This document shows, one piece after another, positions 4,074 to 12,421 of a stretch of DNA of 12,421 nucleotides; position 1 is the first letter of the stretch; each line of letters starts with the position of its first letter. The translations under genes and the position numbers were made by a program. The notes beneath the pieces were generated by a model. That model was not told where the DNA came from. It saw only the letters and a list, made by a program, of their open reading frames with translations, and made no database searches. The stretch is from a bacterium. Its GTDB lineage: Bacteria; Blakebacterota; Blakebacteria; Blakebacterales; Blakebacteraceae. The stretch spans positions 1 through 12,421 of the forward strand of contig JALGVQ010000084.1 of NCBI GenBank assembly GCA_025774615.1. The letters are read 5' to 3'.

Positions 4074-5291
4074 ATGAGATTCTTGCGGATCCTCGCGGTT
4101 GGAACCATTTGCTGTATGAGCCTTGCTCTCCTCACTGCCGGGTCAGATCTGATGCCTTCTCCACAGGTACAGCAAGGGGCAGACGGAGTTCAGGAGGTGG
4201 TTTCGAGAGCACGCCGACCCCTGCCGTCACCCTGGCGTCTCGAGGAGGACCTCATCATCGGCGTGGAATACGGTGATGAAGAGTTCATGATCAGGGGTCC
4301 GAGGGATTTCACTGTCCTCGAGGATGGATCGATGGTCATTCTTGACAGCAATCCCGTTCAACTCCGGGTGTACGATCCTGCTGGCAGATTCATCAGGGAG
4401 TTCGGACAGGCCGGCCGGGGACCAACCGATCTGCCATCCTATGCAGCGGGAAGGGGTGTTTTCAGGGATGCCGGGCAGGAACGATTCGAGATCTGGAGCG
4501 GATGGCCCACCCGGATTCAGACGTGGAATATCAGCGGCGAGATGTTGTCGGTGGAGACCATGGGTGAGGATCATCCGCTCAGGCGGGGCAGGGCTCCCCG
4601 GATTATCAAGTTGTCGGGAGAACGCATCTATGGAATGACCCTGACGGTCCGGAGTCCGCGCCAGGAGCTGCGCCAGTGGGTCACAACCCTTCTGACATCG
4701 AGTTGGGAAGCCACTGAGGCAGATACCGTCAGGATCGTAGAACACTCGGAAATGCCATTCGAGACAGGTTGGTTCCTTGAGGGAGCGGGTGTCTTTCCGT
4801 GGGACGACATTCTCCTTACGCGGAATGGGAATATGTACATATCCAGCTATGAGGATGACTGGATTCGGGAACTGGATCCAGTTTCTGGTAAGGAATTGCT
4901 CCGTTTCAAGTGGGAGCATGAACCCGATTCATTCTCACAGATGGACTTTGATAGTCCGAATAAGGAATTCGTGGATAACGCCAGAAAGGGCTTCGAGTGG
5001 TTCCAGGAGAGAGTATCGATAATGCATCTGGCCGAGGGACCTGGGGGAGAGATCTGGGCACAGCGCATCGTCTGGCCACGTGGAGGAGCAGGTAGAACCT
5101 TTAGGCACAGCTATGAAGAGGGAACATGGCCAACAGATGTTTTCAGTGCTACCGGGCAATACCGGGGCCGGATGATCCTCCCCTATGAACCTCGGGCCCA
5201 GAAGATGATTGGTGACTACATCTACGCCATTGGCTCTACCGAAGGAGGAGCTTCGGCTCTGATACGATTCAGACCCGTACCTGTGCGGTAG
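4074..5291 (+). CDS. Secreted 6-bladed beta-propeller protein
   Basis: The 405-residue product begins with a signal peptide (basic MRFLR, hydrophobic core to about residue 22, likely cut near TAGS). It continues as a repeat-rich beta protein. Residues about 78-120 hold the hallmark of the 6-bladed beta-propeller family: a DG turn, VILDSN, a VYDPAGRFIREFG strand and the GRGPTDL turn. Aromatic and Trp-rich strands run through to the C-terminus, consistent with further blades. Such proteins are exported, and most have no assigned substrate; binding or sensing roles are usual guesses. No lipobox is evident, so it is probably periplasmic or secreted rather than a lipoprotein. The GGAGG ribosome binding site supports the ATG at 4074. 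The gene stands alone, divergent from the kinase and closed by a hairpin downstream. Confidence 0.75.
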   Translation: MRFLRILAVGTICCMSLALLTAGSDLMPSPQVQQGADGVQEVVSRARRPLPSPWRLEEDLIIGVEYGDEEFMIRGPRDFTVLEDGSMVILDSNPVQLRVYDPAGRFIREFGQAGRGPTDLPSYAAGRGVFRDAGQERFEIWSGWPTRIQTWNISGEMLSVETMGEDHPLRRGRAPRIIKLSGERIYGMTLTVRSPRQELRQWVTTLLTSSWEATEADTVRIVEHSEMPFETGWFLEGAGVFPWDDILLTRNGNMYISSYEDDWIRELDPVSGKELLRFKWEHEPDSFSQMDFDSPNKEFVDNARKGFEWFQERVSIMHLAEGPGGEIWAQRIVWPRGGAGRTFRHSYEEGTWPTDVFSATGQYRGRMILPYEPRAQKMIGDYIYAIGSTEGGASALIRFRPVPVR

Positions 5292-5425: not shown

Positions 5426-5468
5426 TAGCCTTGATTATTGTGCGTTAAATAAGAATTATAGCCTTGAT
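5426..5468 (+). promoter_or_regulatory. Leader of the ATPase gene: 10-bp direct repeat and possible promoter
   Basis: TAGCCTTGAT occurs at 5426-5435 and again at 5459-5468, 33 bp apart, about three helical turns, so one protein could contact both on the same DNA face. Within the span, TTGATT (5431-5436) and AATTAT (5454-5459) are separated by 17 bp and could be weak -35 and -10 boxes, each matching 4 of 6. Promoter identity is uncertain. Confidence 0.3.
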
Positions 5469-5541
5469 ATATGAGCGATTAACTACAATAATAACCCCGT
5501 ATAATCAGATTGATGTTGTTTGCGGTGGGGAGGAAATAATC

Positions 5542-6846
5542 TTGAAACGGATGATTGAGCAATCATTGATCGAGTGGAAGGTTTCACTTCACCGCAAACC
5601 TCTTCTTGTCAGGGGAGCGAGACAGGTCGGAAAAACCTGGTCGATTGAAGAATTCGGACACGAGCATTTCAACTACCTGGTGAAGATAGATCTTGAGCGT
5701 AACCGTGAATGGCACCGGGTTTTTGAAGGAGATCTGGATGCAAAGAGGATCTGTGCTGAACTCGAGGTGCTCACCAATCAGTCGATTATATCCGGGGAGT
5801 CGCTTCTCTTTCTTGATGAGATTCAAAGCTGTCCGCGGGCAATCATGGCTCTTCGGTATCTCCATGAGGAATTGCCGGACCTGCATGTAATCGCAGCCGG
5901 TTCGTTGCTCGAATTTGCGATTACCGATATCCCGTTCCCGGTTGGGCGTATCCAGTTCCTCGATATGCATCCGATGATTTTTGCAGAATTCCTCTGGGCC
6001 ATCGGTCAGGATAAGCTGGCAGATATCGTACTGGGGGTGCCGGCTGCAGTTTCGGCCTCCGTGCATCATCTCCTGATGAGCGAATTGAAGAAATATTGCT
6101 TCATTGGAGGTATGCCTGAGGTAGTAGCCAGATACCTCGAAACGGAATCCATTCAGCATGTATCACAGGTTATCGGTGATCTCTGTGAGGCATACAGACT
6201 GGATTTTCCAAAATATTCCAGACGATCGGATCCGGACTGTATCGACACGGTCTTCCGTAGTCTGGCGAGGAATCTCGGCCATCAGGTGAAATACTCACGT
6301 CTTACCGATGCCTGGGCGCATACAACGGTTAAACGGGCGGTGAATCTGCTCGACAAGGCACAGATAATCAAGCGGGTTCCCTCGGCATCACCGTCCGGGC
6401 TTCCCCTGGGAGCATCAATCTCAGATCGGAAGTTCAAGGCGATCATGGTGGACGTAGGCATCTGGCAGCACCTGAGTGGTATGAGAATCGATACAGCCAT
6501 TGCGGAAGATGATCTGCTGGACATCTACCGTGGTGCGATGGCTGAGCAGTTCGTCGGCCAGGAAATGGTGGTATCACAAGGCTCGGACCTATATTACTGG
6601 GCGAGGGAAGCCAGGGGGAGTTCGGCAGAGGTTGATTACCTGGCGGTCGTGCAAGATTCCATCTTTGGTGTAGAGGTAAAGAGCGGCCCCGCGGGACGAC
6701 TCCGCAGTATGCACCTGCTCCTGGAAACCTATCAGAACTGTGCGGGCGGAATGGTGTTCTCTTCAGGTCCATATGCAGAGCTACCTGAGCAGAGGTTGAC
6801 TTTCATACCACTCTATTACGTTTATGCTGCGACGCGCTCCCGGTGA
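5542..6846 (+). CDS. AAA ATPase with C-terminal DUF4143 (PD-(D/E)XK-like) domain
   Basis: From a TTG at 5542 the protein has 434 residues. The N-terminal AAA_14-type ATPase shows Walker A GARQVGKT (25-32, Lys31), Walker B LLFLDE (88-93) and a sensor-like VIAAGSLLEF (116-125). The C-terminal DUF4143 region carries AEVDYL (362-367) and EVKSG (378-382), the E..D..ExK spacing of nuclease-fold proteins. These ATPases are common, often horizontally moved genes of unknown cellular role. I chose TTG 5542 because GGGGAGGAAA ends about six bases before it and the resulting MKRMIEQSL..W matches the family's usual opening. A frame opening at TTG 5464 would add 26 unusual residues, and ATG 5551 is too far from the binding site. 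It is on the hydrogenase strand but looks functionally unrelated; no partner gene adjoins it. Confidence 0.88.
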   Translation: MKRMIEQSLIEWKVSLHRKPLLVRGARQVGKTWSIEEFGHEHFNYLVKIDLERNREWHRVFEGDLDAKRICAELEVLTNQSIISGESLLFLDEIQSCPRAIMALRYLHEELPDLHVIAAGSLLEFAITDIPFPVGRIQFLDMHPMIFAEFLWAIGQDKLADIVLGVPAAVSASVHHLLMSELKKYCFIGGMPEVVARYLETESIQHVSQVIGDLCEAYRLDFPKYSRRSDPDCIDTVFRSLARNLGHQVKYSRLTDAWAHTTVKRAVNLLDKAQIIKRVPSASPSGLPLGASISDRKFKAIMVDVGIWQHLSGMRIDTAIAEDDLLDIYRGAMAEQFVGQEMVVSQGSDLYYWAREARGSSAEVDYLAVVQDSIFGVEVKSGPAGRLRSMHLLLETYQNCAGGMVFSSGPYAELPEQRLTFIPLYYVYAATRSR

Positions 6847-7072: not shown

Positions 7073-8776
7073 ATGCAGGTAGTGTACAGGCAGCAGATAG
7101 CCCAGGAGATAGAGGAGCTGAAGCAGGAATTCGGCTCTGACCGTTCTGCACTATTGCCCATCCTGCATGTCATGCAGGAGAGGTACCGATATATCCCCGA
7201 TCGAGTCCTCCAGTCGATTGCACACGCATTTGACATCCACCCGGCCGAAGTCGAAGGGGTGGTGAGTTTTTACAGTTTCTTCGAGACCAGGGAGAAACTC
7301 GGTAAATACGTCATCCGTCTCTGTCAGACCATCTCATGTGACATGGTGGCCAAGGATAACGTTGCCCGCCAGCTTGAGAATGAGTTGGGTATCAAGTTCG
7401 GCGAGACCACCAGGGATGGGATGTTCACCCTGAAGTATACCAATTGCCTCGGTCTGTGCGATCAGGGTCCGGCGATGCTGGTTAATGAACGGTTATTCGC
7501 CGGAGTTACACCGGACATGGTTCACCAGATTCTCATAGAAGCACGACGGAATTTCGTCAGGTCGGATTTCCCCTGTTTCATTCCCTCAAACGTTTGCCGG
7601 CGCGGACCGATACTCGATAATGGGACCGAACCGGGTGAAGGTCTCAGGGCTGCTCTCGAGCAGCATCCAGAGGAGATCATCGCGATCATCGAGGCCTCAC
7701 AGCTGAGAGGACGGGGGGGAGCAGGATTCCCGACCGCATTCAAATGGCAGCTTGCGGCACAGGATCCAGACGAGCAGAAATACGTGGTATGCAACGCCGA
7801 TGAGGGTGAACCGGGCACCTTCAAGGACCGCTATCTGCTGACAGAACATTTCGAGGCGGTACTCGACGGCATGACCATTGCTGCTTATACCATCGGTGCC
7901 AGTCAGGGGTACATCTATCTGCGTATCGAATATCTCTATCTGAGAGACACACTGCTTGCTGCGATCACCAGGCGAAGAGAGTCGGGACTGCTCGGAGATA
8001 AGATCCTCGGGAAGGAGGGTTTTACCTTCGATATCGATATCCGCATGGGAGCCGGCAGTTACGTCTGCGGTGAGGAGACAGCGCTGATACAGTCACTGGA
8101 GGGAGAACGCGGCGAACCGCGCAACCGTCCCCCCTTCCCGGTGGATACAGGCTTCTTCGGGCACCCCACGATCGTCAACAATGTCGAGACCTTCCTCGAT
8201 GCAACGCTCATCGTCGTCAAAGGACCGGAGTGGTTCAGCCAGCATGGCACCGACACCTCGAAAGGAACAAAACTGTTCAGCATCTCGGGCGAATGTGAGC
8301 GACCGGGGATATACGAGCTCCCGTTCGGAACATCTATCCATGACCTGCTGAAGGAAGTGGGGGCTGAGGACGCCAAGGCGGTGCAGATCGGCGGAGCAGC
8401 CGGCCGCTGCGTCTCACGGGATCATTTCGACAGAACACTGGGCTTCGAGGACCTGTCGACCGGAGGATCGATCATCGTCTTCGGACCAGAGACAGACATG
8501 CTGGAGGTCGCCAGGAATTTTTCAGACTTCTTTGTTGATGAGTCGTGTGGCCAGTGCACCCCCTGCCGGATCGGGAACGTGAAGATCCGGGAGTGTATCA
8601 CGATGCTCGAAGAGGGGCGCTGTTCCTCAGCCTACCTGAACGAACTGATCAAACTCGGCGACACCATGCGTCTGGCCTCGAAATGCGGACTGGGTCAAGC
8701 GGGTGGCAATGCCTTCAGGACGATCGCCGGCGCCTTCACCGATGAGATCCTTGGCCGCATTCCAGGGTCTGATTGA
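7073..8776 (+). CDS. hydB: NAD(H)-linked hydrogenase diaphorase subunit, NuoE-NuoF (HydC-HydB) fusion
   Basis: The 567-residue protein fuses two complex-I-type modules. Residues 1-160 are NuoE-like: a helical bundle, then a thioredoxin-like [2Fe-2S] domain with Cys84, Cys89, Cys125 and Cys129. Residues about 185-567 are NuoF-like: GRGGAGFPT (213-221) and NADEGEPGTFKDR (241-253) for NADH/FMN, GAGSYVCGEETAL (326-338), and a [4Fe-4S] site of Cys492, Cys495, Cys498 and Cys538. It should exchange electrons between NAD(H) and the hydrogenase encoded 9 bp downstream. In trimeric bifurcating enzymes these modules are separate HydC and HydB, and HydB carries a C-terminal 2x[4Fe-4S] domain; that domain is absent here, as in HoxF-type fusions. 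An in-frame TAG at 7040-7042 limits the start, and ATG 7073 has only a weak G-rich binding site. Confidence 0.93.
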   Translation: MQVVYRQQIAQEIEELKQEFGSDRSALLPILHVMQERYRYIPDRVLQSIAHAFDIHPAEVEGVVSFYSFFETREKLGKYVIRLCQTISCDMVAKDNVARQLENELGIKFGETTRDGMFTLKYTNCLGLCDQGPAMLVNERLFAGVTPDMVHQILIEARRNFVRSDFPCFIPSNVCRRGPILDNGTEPGEGLRAALEQHPEEIIAIIEASQLRGRGGAGFPTAFKWQLAAQDPDEQKYVVCNADEGEPGTFKDRYLLTEHFEAVLDGMTIAAYTIGASQGYIYLRIEYLYLRDTLLAAITRRRESGLLGDKILGKEGFTFDIDIRMGAGSYVCGEETALIQSLEGERGEPRNRPPFPVDTGFFGHPTIVNNVETFLDATLIVVKGPEWFSQHGTDTSKGTKLFSISGECERPGIYELPFGTSIHDLLKEVGAEDAKAVQIGGAAGRCVSRDHFDRTLGFEDLSTGGSIIVFGPETDMLEVARNFSDFFVDESCGQCTPCRIGNVKIRECITMLEEGRCSSAYLNELIKLGDTMRLASKCGLGQAGGNAFRTIAGAFTDEILGRIPGSD

Positions 8777-8785
8777 GAGAATACA

Positions 8786-10714
8786 ATGTCTCACGACAGC
8801 CAGACAGACCCTGATCAGGGTCGCGCACCACGCAGCGAGACGATCAGTGACTACCGGCGGCACACCGATGACGCCACTCTGCGATCCATTGTCAAGGCGA
8901 CCATAGACGGCATCGAAATCGAAGTGCCGTTCGGGACGACGATTCTGGACGCGGCCAAGACGGTCGGCGTGACGATCCCGACACTGTGCCAGCATGACAA
9001 CCTGTGCATAGCGGGTGTCTGCCGTATCTGTGTCGTTGAGGTCGACGGAGAGCGGACGCTTCACGCTTCCTGCTCCTATCCGATCACCTCACCGATCGAC
9101 ATCCGGACGCACACGCAGAAAATACGCCAGGCCCGGCGGCACATCCTCGAACTGATGCTGTCGGAGCACGTTGGAGAATGTTACGCCTGTTGCCGGAACG
9201 GTCACTGCGAACTGCAGAAACTGGCCTCCACCTACGGGGTCGATTTCTATCGCTTCGGTCACCGGACCGAAGAGCGGTACGGCAGGGACGATTCCAGCCC
9301 GTCGCTGGTCCGTGACATGGATAAATGCATCCTCTGTCGCCGCTGTGTGAGGGCGTGCATCGATCTGCAGGAGGTGGGTGCCTACAACATATTCAACCGG
9401 GGGTACGAGACGAAGGTCACTACCTTTCTGGACCGTCCCATGTGGGAAGCGGTATGCATCAACTGCGGGCAGTGTATCAACCACTGCCCAACCGGAGCGC
9501 TCCATTCGAAAGATATGAGTGACGATGTCTGGGCTGCGATCGATGATCCCGAAAAGCATGTAGTGATCCAGACGGCCCCGGCACCACGGGCGGCGATCGG
9601 AGAATGCTTCGGACTCGAGCCGGGGACACCGGTAACCCTTCAGCTCAATACCGCGATCAGGCACTGTGGTTTCGACCGCGTGTTCGATACGAATTTCGCG
9701 GCCGACCTGACCATCATGGAGGAGGGGGCCGAACTGCTGCAGCGGCTCTACCAGGCGGTGGTGGAGGAGAAGGAAGTGGCCCTGCCTCTCTTCACCACAT
9801 GCTCTCCGGGATGGGTCAAGTTCCTCGAGTACTTCTATCCGGAGATGATCCCGCACCTTTCGTCGGCAAAGAGCCCGCAGCAGATGTTCGGGGCAGTGAT
9901 CAAGACGTATTATGCCGAACTGAACGACATCGATCCGTTCGATATCGTCACCGTCTCGCTGATGCCCTGCACCGCGAAGAAGTATGAATGCAATCGACCT
10001 GAATTCCATGATTCGGGATTCAAGGATGTCGACTACGTGCTGACAACGCGAGAGATGGCGCAGATGATCATGGAAGTTGGTGTGAATCTGCCCGACATGC
10101 CCGAATCGGATTTCGATGACCCATTCGGCAAGGCCACGGGATCGGGTGTCATCTTCGGCGCCACCGGCGGGGTGATGGAATCGGCGATCAGGACCGTATA
10201 CGAGCTGGTAACAGGTGAGTCGGTCGAAAACCTCTTCGATCATCTGCGGATCATGCCGGTGCGCGGATTCGAGGGGATCAAGTACGCCGAATTGGAAATC
10301 CCCGGGACAGCCGGGGTGCCCGACCTTCTGAAGGAGGTCATACCCGACCTCGACTGGCTGGCCGGTAAAACGCTCAAGGTAGCGGTGGCTCACGGAACGG
10401 CCAATGCCAAGCGGGTCCTGGAGAATATCCGTCGCGGAGGTGAGTTCGCCGATTGCCATTTCATCGAGTTCATGGCCTGTTCCGGCGGATGTCTGGGAGG
10501 GGGTGGTCAGCCCATCCCGACCAACCGGGCGATCCTGGAGGCGAGAGCCCGGGGCATCTATGAAGAGGATGAACATTCTTCGGTAAGGAAGTCCTTTGAG
10601 AATCCGGCGATCGTACAACTCTACCGGGATTTCCTGACCGAAGGCCCTCTGGGGAGCAGGAGCCACGAGTTGCTACATACCAGTTATACTGTTCGCACCA
10701 GGATGATGGTCTGA
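8786..10714 (+). CDS. hydA: [FeFe]-hydrogenase catalytic subunit
   Basis: The 642-residue cytoplasmic enzyme makes or consumes H2. In order: an unusual polar extension (1-35); a plant-type [2Fe-2S] domain (Cys68, 79, 82, 96); a His-ligated [4Fe-4S] site (His128, Cys132, 135, 141); two [4Fe-4S] clusters (Cys181, 184, 187, 191 and 224, 227, 230, 234); the H-cluster domain; and the C-terminal small-subunit-like region ending near SHELLHTSYTVR. H-cluster motifs are TTCSPGW (337-343), MPCTAKKYE (393-401) and EFMACSGGCLGGGGQP (561-576). The first departs from canonical TSCCPxW: position 340, normally a cubane-ligand Cys, is Ser (codon 9803-9805). The proton-transfer Cys339 and ligands Cys395, Cys565 and Cys569 are kept. 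No extra C-terminal [2Fe-2S] domain is present. The start at ATG 8786 follows GAGAG, 9 bp after the diaphorase stop. Confidence 0.96.
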   Translation: MSHDSQTDPDQGRAPRSETISDYRRHTDDATLRSIVKATIDGIEIEVPFGTTILDAAKTVGVTIPTLCQHDNLCIAGVCRICVVEVDGERTLHASCSYPITSPIDIRTHTQKIRQARRHILELMLSEHVGECYACCRNGHCELQKLASTYGVDFYRFGHRTEERYGRDDSSPSLVRDMDKCILCRRCVRACIDLQEVGAYNIFNRGYETKVTTFLDRPMWEAVCINCGQCINHCPTGALHSKDMSDDVWAAIDDPEKHVVIQTAPAPRAAIGECFGLEPGTPVTLQLNTAIRHCGFDRVFDTNFAADLTIMEEGAELLQRLYQAVVEEKEVALPLFTTCSPGWVKFLEYFYPEMIPHLSSAKSPQQMFGAVIKTYYAELNDIDPFDIVTVSLMPCTAKKYECNRPEFHDSGFKDVDYVLTTREMAQMIMEVGVNLPDMPESDFDDPFGKATGSGVIFGATGGVMESAIRTVYELVTGESVENLFDHLRIMPVRGFEGIKYAELEIPGTAGVPDLLKEVIPDLDWLAGKTLKVAVAHGTANAKRVLENIRRGGEFADCHFIEFMACSGGCLGGGGQPIPTNRAILEARARGIYEEDEHSSVRKSFENPAIVQLYRDFLTEGPLGSRSHELLHTSYTVRTRMMV

Positions 10715-10766
10715 CCGGGTACGGACTCCGGGTCGGGATCATCCTCTCTGCGCGAGAAACCGGAAC

Positions 10767-11834
10767 GTGATGCATCGCAGTGAAATCATCAGCTGGCTCA
10801 GGGAGACCGATCCTTCCCGGCTCGAATCACTGTGGTTATCTGCCGACCAGGTTCGGAGAGCGCAGGTGGGAGACTCGGTCCATCTGCGGGGTATCATCAA
10901 CTTCTCGAACTGGTGTATTCGACGCTGCACCTATTGCGGGATCAACGCTGACAACCGGGTTCTGCGTCGCTACCTGATGACTTCCAATGAGATCGTGGAA
11001 TGCACCCGCACGTTCAGGCAGTGGGGGTTGATGACCGCAGTCCTGCAGTCGGGTGAGGATCAGCGGATCACCACGGGCTGGGTGACAGGACTGATTGCCC
11101 GGATCAGGCAGGAAACCGACCTGGCGGTCACTCTCAGCCTGGGTGAACGGCAGGAGGAGGAACTCACGAAGTGGCGAGCAGCCGGGGCAGAGCGCTACCT
11201 GCTGAAGATCGAGAGTTCGAACCGGGAGCTGTATGAGTCGATGCAGCCAGGCCGCAGGAACGCATGGCTCTCGCGGATGGAGGTGCTGAAGACCCTGCGG
11301 GCGCTCGATTATGAGGTAGGGACCGGGATCATGATCGGGATCCCCGGTCAGACGTATGAGATGCTGGCAGATGACCTGCTGTTCATCGGCGATCTCGAAC
11401 CGGACATGATCGGGATCGGCCCCTATATTCCTCATCCGGCCACCTCGTTGCCCGCCGCTCCGCGAGCCCGGACCGATCAGGTTCCAAACGACCAGGTGAC
11501 GACACTGAAGACACTCGCGCTGACGAGGATGATCTGCCCGGAGGCCAATATCCCTGCTACGACGGCACTGTTGACGATCAGTCAGCACGAGGAGCTGGAG
11601 ATGGGACTGGCGTGCGGTGCGAACGTTATCATGCCTGACCGTACTCCGGCAGAGTACCGTCGATTGTACGATATCTACCCCTCGCGGATCCCATTCACGA
11701 CAGAGCGCCTGACTGAGTTGCAGAACGCGATCCACCGGATGGGCCGGACCATCAGCACCGACAGCGGAAGATCAGTGCACTACCTGAAGCGTAACAGGAA
11801 TACACCTGCCGTTCCGGCAGGAGTGGACCGATGA
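10767..11834 (+). CDS. hydE: [FeFe]-hydrogenase H-cluster radical SAM maturase HydE
   Basis: The product (355 residues from GTG 10767, 354 from ATG 10770) is a radical SAM enzyme. The family helps build the H-cluster's bridging dithiolate from an iron-cysteine precursor made by HydG. The RGIINFSNWC segment leads into the CxxxCxxC cluster motif (Cys50, 54, 57). GEDQ (about 106-109) and the GIMIGIPGQT stretch (about 187-196) are typical of HydE barrels. The C-terminus keeps GANVIMPDRTP..YR.LY..YPSR but has no cysteines after it, so the accessory cluster found in some HydE proteins, which is not needed for activity, is absent. The length matches the family. The gene lies 52 bp after hydA, and its TGA overlaps the hydG ATG by four bases, implying coupled translation. 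Confidence 0.95.
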   Translation: MMHRSEIISWLRETDPSRLESLWLSADQVRRAQVGDSVHLRGIINFSNWCIRRCTYCGINADNRVLRRYLMTSNEIVECTRTFRQWGLMTAVLQSGEDQRITTGWVTGLIARIRQETDLAVTLSLGERQEEELTKWRAAGAERYLLKIESSNRELYESMQPGRRNAWLSRMEVLKTLRALDYEVGTGIMIGIPGQTYEMLADDLLFIGDLEPDMIGIGPYIPHPATSLPAAPRARTDQVPNDQVTTLKTLALTRMICPEANIPATTALLTISQHEELEMGLACGANVIMPDRTPAEYRRLYDIYPSRIPFTTERLTELQNAIHRMGRTISTDSGRSVHYLKRNRNTPAVPAGVDR

Positions 11835-12421
11835 CAGCGAGATCAGGCAGATCGGAGACCGAGCGGAAGCTCTCCAGGGGGGCGGTGGATTTCATCGATG
11901 ACGCCGGGCTCACCCAACTGCTGGAAGAGAGCGCCGGCACGGATACCGGGCGGTTCCGGGATGTGATCGACAAGAGTCTCGACCGGCAGCCGCTCACTCC
12001 TGAAGAGAGTGCTGTCCTCATCGGTGCGACCGCACCGGAGCAGGTCGAGGAACTGTTCACCGCCGCACGACGCCTGAAGCAGGATGTCTACGGAAACCGG
12101 ATCGTGATCTTCGCGCCGCTCTACATCGGAAACAGATGTGTCAACAACTGCCTCTACTGCGGCTTTCGCCGGGACAACGATGAGATGCACCGGCGTACCC
12201 TGCAGCCCGACGAGATCGCCAGACAGGTCATCAGCCTTGAGAACACCGGTCACAAGCGCCTGATTATCGTCTTCGGTGAACATCCGTCGTACGATGCCGA
12301 GTTCATCGCTGAAACGGTCAGATCGATTTACAGGATCAAAACAGACCGGGGATCGATCCGTCGTCTCAACATCAACGCCGCTCCGCTCTCGGTGGAGGAA
12401 TTCGGTCTGGTGAGGAAGCGG
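11831..12421 (+). CDS. hydG: [FeFe]-hydrogenase maturase HydG (tyrosine lyase), 3' end beyond window
   Basis: The first 197 codons of hydG are present and the frame runs off the right edge. HydG is a radical SAM enzyme that cleaves tyrosine to supply the CO and cyanide ligands and an Fe(CO)2(CN) synthon for the H-cluster. Visible features are the conserved GNRIVIFAPLYIGNRC approach, the radical SAM motif CVNNCLYC (Cys103, 107, 110), LIIVFGEHPSYDAEFIAET (about 144-162), and the RLNINAAPLSVEEFG segment. All match HydG rather than the related ThiH. The second, C-terminal iron-sulfur motif that holds the dangler iron would lie outside the window. The ATG overlaps the hydE stop (ATGA), so the two maturases are probably translated together. 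The remaining maturase, HydF, may follow downstream. Confidence 0.96.
   Translation, partial: MTARSGRSETERKLSRGAVDFIDDAGLTQLLEESAGTDTGRFRDVIDKSLDRQPLTPEESAVLIGATAPEQVEELFTAARRLKQDVYGNRIVIFAPLYIGNRCVNNCLYCGFRRDNDEMHRRTLQPDEIARQVISLENTGHKRLIIVFGEHPSYDAEFIAETVRSIYRIKTDRGSIRRLNINAAPLSVEEFGLVRKR

Follow-up and report, generated by a model that had tools for sequence, protein, structure and literature searches.

A clade-typical serine at the CpI Cys300 position in HydA of a probable NADH-linked [FeFe]-hydrogenase

The hydrogenase genes and their surroundings

The stretch of DNA analysed, called the window here, is 12,421 nucleotides long and comes from an assembly of 324 contigs that is 82% complete. 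The forward strand carries hydA (8786-10714, +), which was identified as an open reading frame with NCBIfam and Pfam matches and encodes a catalytic subunit of 642 aa. The frame is full length and has no internal stops. The domains of HydA follow the order 2Fe-2S, NuoG-type His/Cys 4Fe-4S, 2x[4Fe-4S], H-domain and small-subunit domain, with Pfam matches to PF02906, PF02256, PF13510, PF10588 and PF22117. HydA scored 790.5 bits against NF040763, the NCBIfam family "NADH-dependent [FeFe] hydrogenase, group A6", whose cut-off is 765, and 478.8 bits against TIGR02512 (cut-off 406). In profile searches of the whole assembly no other protein exceeded the group A cut-off. An AlphaFold model of HydA (mean pLDDT 68.6) had the right fold when compared with the PDB, the top matches being HydA1 of T. 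kivui and of A. woodii. The model contains no cluster and is uninformative on cubane ligation.

Upstream of hydA lies hydB (7073-8776, +), in which a HydC-like part (NuoE, residues 6-157) is fused to a HydB-like part (NuoF, residues 190-561); this fused frame ends 9 bases before the start of hydA. Downstream, hydE (10767-11834, +) encodes a radical SAM H-cluster maturase (281 bits, cut-off 254.6) and is followed by hydG (11831-12421, +), recognised by a profile match. Both maturases had been described as intact in the preliminary description. This is true of HydE, which is complete, but only the 5' part of hydG is present, with 197 aa visible before the contig ends at 12421. A profile search of the 82%-complete assembly for HydF gave only generic GTPases and none above the cut-off.

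The nearest named relative outside the genus of the window is Candidatus Electryonea. In one Candidatus Electryonea sequence (L011) HydE and HydG form a single fused ORF of 863 aa (7990-10578, +; HydE at residues 12-349, HydG at 403-862), unlike the window, where hydE and hydG are two genes with an overlap of 4 bases. HydF follows the fusion in that sequence (10562-11800, +), and because of this order hydF of the window has possibly been lost past hydG at the contig end. Maturation of the window HydA is thus assumed here, HydG being truncated and HydF not having been found in the incomplete assembly.

Other genes of the window were also noted. An ArsR-type regulator fused to a rhodanese domain (574-1245, +) is followed by a hydrophobic protein of 176 aa, possibly a membrane protein (1265-1795). 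Directly upstream of the hyd genes, the frame at 5464-6846 (+) encodes 460 aa which by eye resemble an AAA-type ATPase (GARQVGKT). A further frame, at 4074-5291 (+), encodes 405 aa with an N-terminal hydrophobic stretch and, by eye only, the look of a secreted beta-propeller-type protein. Neither of these two products had an NCBIfam match.

Serine at the CpI Cys300 position

The L1 motif of HydA is located at 9788-9814 (+), where the sequence CTCTTCACCACATGCTCTCCGGGATGG is translated in frame as LFTTCSPGW, containing Thr338, Cys339 and Ser340. HMMER alignment to CpI, the Clostridium pasteurianum enzyme, placed Cys339 at Cys299, the proton-relay residue, and Ser340, encoded by TCT (9803-9805, +), at Cys300, a ligand of the cubane. 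MAFFT alignment gave the same placing of Ser340 and matched Cys395, Cys565 and Cys569 to CpI Cys355, Cys499 and Cys503. Of these remaining three cubane ligands, Cys395 lies in the L2 motif MPCTAKKYE (9962-9988, +), and Cys565 and Cys569 lie in the L3 core MACSGGC (10472-10492, +). The CpI proton path residues Glu279, Glu282, Arg286 and Ser319 are likewise conserved. The replacement of the second L1 cysteine by serine, with the first cysteine and the other three ligands retained, is therefore as the preliminary description had read it. All three H-cluster motifs were found, L1 in the wider form TSC[C/S]PxW, as TTCSPGW, MPCTAKKYE and MACSGGCLGGGG; the strict textbook form of L1, TSCCPxW, is lacking in the window HydA and in most of its clade too.

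The frequency of serine at this column was counted first of all in 80 relatives fetched from one-genome-per-species contigs. Their record titles name Neomarinimicrobiota, KSB1, Electryoneota, Verrucomicrobia, Kiritimatiellales, Eisenbacteria, Acidobacteriota, Ignavibacteria, Bacteroidota, Fusobacteriota, Omnitrophota, Riflebacteria and others. Serine was present in 77 of the 80, and cysteine in three Clostridium sequences (L085, L086 and L088). A wider group A set also took in paralogues in the same genomes, sequences sampled from Clostridia and from the phylum to which the Deltaproteobacteria bin L050 belongs, and, from PDB alignments, the sequences of CpI and of HydA1 of A. woodii and T. kivui. 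In the resulting 153-row alignment the column held 125 Ser, 27 Cys and one gap, a proportion which is not a census, as the set is skewed to relatives of the window. Cys299, Cys355, Cys499 and Cys503 were invariant where present. In the tree, the clade of the window (77 rows including the window, support 98) had serine throughout. Serine at the CpI Cys300 position is thus fixed in the clade of the window and widespread in group A. A count of a loose DNA pattern in 290 genomes was discarded on account of its many chance matches.

Since Ser340 does replace a textbook cubane ligand, it might be taken for a rare, lineage-specific swap which retunes the H-cluster of this one enzyme, and rarity was indeed implied when the residue was first pointed out. 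The counts, with serine in all 77 clade rows and in 125 of 152 sequences overall, refute this reading, as does the literature, and we regard it as very improbable. A survey of Great Salt Lake, in which TSC(C/S)P was used for searching, found the Cys-to-Ser exchange at CpI 300 to be common in hydA from there and from Guerrero Negro (PMC4284687, 2014). In Hydrogenedentota, serine at the fifth position of P1 is common in four of the five A3 subtypes, cysteine being often present in the remaining one (PMC11406978, 2024), and a paper on Melainabacteria lists TSCSPGW (PMC3787301). With A. woodii HydA1 as a further example, the suspicion that the variant might already be known in NAD-linked clades proved right: it is known, not new.

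A sequencing or assembly error, or decay of a pseudogene, would be another explanation of Ser340, as TCT differs from the cysteine codon TGT by one base and the assembly is fragmented into 324 contigs. The codons argue against it. TCG is the codon both in the nearest relative, which is 88% identical, and in a genome of the same genus, and the rest of the clade has serine with different codons. Across the alignment all six serine codons are in use (TCT 23, TCG 30, TCA 27, TCC 10, AGC 24 and AGT 10, i.e. 90 TCN and 34 AGY), while the cysteine codons at the column are TGC (13) and TGT (12). With all six codons in use, assembly error and decay both drop out as causes of Ser340, and the exchange of synonymous codons while the amino acid stays the same indicates that serine is selected. 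As the ORF is also intact and passes the family cut-off, the error reading is refuted for Ser340 and has practically no probability left; the earlier judgement that this is not simple decay was sound.

Two other residues differ in this respect. Thr338 (codon ACA, 9797-9799, +), at the second position of L1, is one conservative Ser-to-Thr change found in the window alone; each of the 151 remaining sequences in the alignment has serine there. Ser566 (10481-10483) adjoins Cys565; proline occupies this position in 70 of 72 clade rows and valine in the nearest relative (L009). Both are near-private residues of active-site loops, beside cluster or relay cysteines, and replace no ligand. For these two residues, and solely for them, sequencing or assembly error may still be the cause. 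The strict pattern TTCSPGW, searched over 145 genomes, occurred in the window and in two others, both of which were rejected: one match (L200) lay in a frame unlike a hydrogenase, and the other (L199) gave on translation no open frame of at least 60 residues with the motif.

The trees contained at least 7 Ser/Cys changes (151-row FastTree) and 8 changes (51-row IQ-TREE), but in an AU test cysteine as one clade was not rejected (p 0.089). Repeated exchange between serine and cysteine is consequently likely but not proven.

The HydB partner and electron bifurcation

Where bifurcating enzymes show PGAFM and GGPSG, the HydB of the window reads PGTFKDR and GGAAG. It also has no C-terminal 2x[4Fe-4S] bridge domain: only 68 residues follow the last cluster motif, and there is no CxxCxxCxxxCP motif. 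The marks of a bifurcating HydABC, i.e. GGPSG and the C-terminal [4Fe-4S] bridge domain, are thus both missing. Non-bifurcating enzymes are recognised by Thr or Ser together with Lys, Ser or Ala at T. maritima HydB positions 232 and 234, by the lack of GGPSG at 427-431, and by Tyr rather than Phe at position 367 (PMC7311640). The window HydB has Thr and Lys at 232 and 234 and lacks GGPSG; all of these positions were mapped except 367, for which the T. maritima chain numbering used here gave no matching Phe. The non-bifurcating marks are common to almost all relatives in the clade of the window. In two other sequences, L078 and L080, a second HydB-like ORF (1037 and 1013 aa) carries the bifurcating signature PGAFMDR and GGPSG, and about 550 residues follow its NuoF cluster motif as a large C-terminal extension.

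That serine could be a mark of electron-bifurcating enzymes is suggested by A. woodii HydABC, which is bifurcating and has serine. The bifurcating enzyme of T. kivui has cysteine, however, as have the three Clostridium sequences, whose HydB is of the bifurcating type, and in the clade of the window serine is found together with a non-bifurcating HydB signature. The proposal is refuted by these cases and is highly unlikely to hold. Serine is found beside partners of either kind, bifurcating or not, so that the residue alone does not decide whether an enzyme bifurcates.

Judged from its sequence, the window enzyme is probably a dimeric, non-bifurcating, NADH-linked HydAB of NCBIfam group A6. It is probably active and would move electrons between NAD(H) and the H-cluster through FMN and Fe-S clusters. 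It resembles the HydAB of Syntrophus aciditrophicus, a NADH-linked dimer in which a gamma-like part is fused to the beta N-terminus and the beta subunit has the non-bifurcating signature (PMC7311640). Among solved structures the best sequence match is A. woodii HydA1 (PDB 7q4v, 7q4w, 8a5e), with TSCSPGW and thus serine at CpI 300, but in A. woodii HydABC three subunits make up a bifurcating complex, and its HydB carries PGAFMDR, GGPSG and a cluster domain at the C-terminus, whereas the fused HydC-HydB of the window has none of the three. CpI shares the H-domain, the proton-relay cysteine and three of the four cubane ligands, and differs in being a monomeric, non-bifurcating enzyme with Cys300, in place of Ser340 and a NADH-binding partner. 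With NF040763 group A6, which is related to group A3 of PMC11406978, the window HydA shares a full-length match above the cut-off, the domain order and the L1 serine; it differs in no family-defining feature, only in the near-private Thr338 and Ser566, neither of which replaces a ligand. Its status as an ordinary, clade-typical HydA is close to certain, and taken as a whole the findings are very probably best explained by an ordinary HydA of a dimeric NADH-linked [FeFe]-hydrogenase, in which serine is typical of the clade.

The fourth cubane ligand and the meaning of the serine

The preliminary description had named as a ground for its own refutation that serine is routine at this column with the ligand supplied by another residue. 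The first part agrees with the counts given above; the second is not borne out. When the mutual information between every column and the Ser/Cys state was calculated, the H-domain yielded no potential ligand (Cys, His, Asp or Glu) peculiar to the Ser-type enzymes; the best correlates of the serine state there were CpI 229 (Thr in Ser-type enzymes) and CpI 336 (Tyr). The CpI-300 column itself held nothing but Ser or Cys in the 152 sequences. The strict column, the fixed other ligands and the lack of a co-varying ligand make coordination through the serine oxygen, or through water that it holds, the simplest reading. Ser340 would then occupy the place of Cys300, and its oxygen, or a water or hydroxide held by it, would complete the ligand set of the cubane, with Cys395, Cys565 and Cys569 as the other three. 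We incline, with some reserve, to the view that Ser340 is an actual ligand. The shift in potential or catalytic bias suggested in the preliminary description may or may not go with it.

It is also conceivable that the serine does not ligate, the cubane having three cysteines and water or hydroxide, or another residue moving in, and this has a substantial, though less than even, chance of being correct. Ligation by serine is uncommon in Fe-S clusters (PMC4284687), which speaks for such an arrangement. The lack of any co-varying potential ligand in the domain speaks against it, and a column restricted to serine and cysteine is more in keeping with coordination than with a residue free to vary.

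Coordination by Ser340 itself seems to us somewhat the likelier reading, and in either case the chemistry of ligation is a question of the family and not of the window. The idea of a Ser-type cubane was put forward already in 2014, together with the proposal that serine might stabilise an oxidised cluster (PMC4284687). The chances are about even that a very large natural group of NADH-linked [FeFe]-hydrogenases has a cubane with three cysteines and one serine (or open-site) ligand, and that its potential or its behaviour towards oxygen is altered; the enzyme of the window would then be one ordinary member of this group.

For the genome of the window nothing is changed, as its hydrogenase is a normal member of the family. 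Searches which require TSCCPxW would throw out a large number of genuine NADH-linked hydrogenases. What the serine does at CpI 300 is a clean question, and one that could be answered with existing purified enzymes such as A. woodii HydABC.
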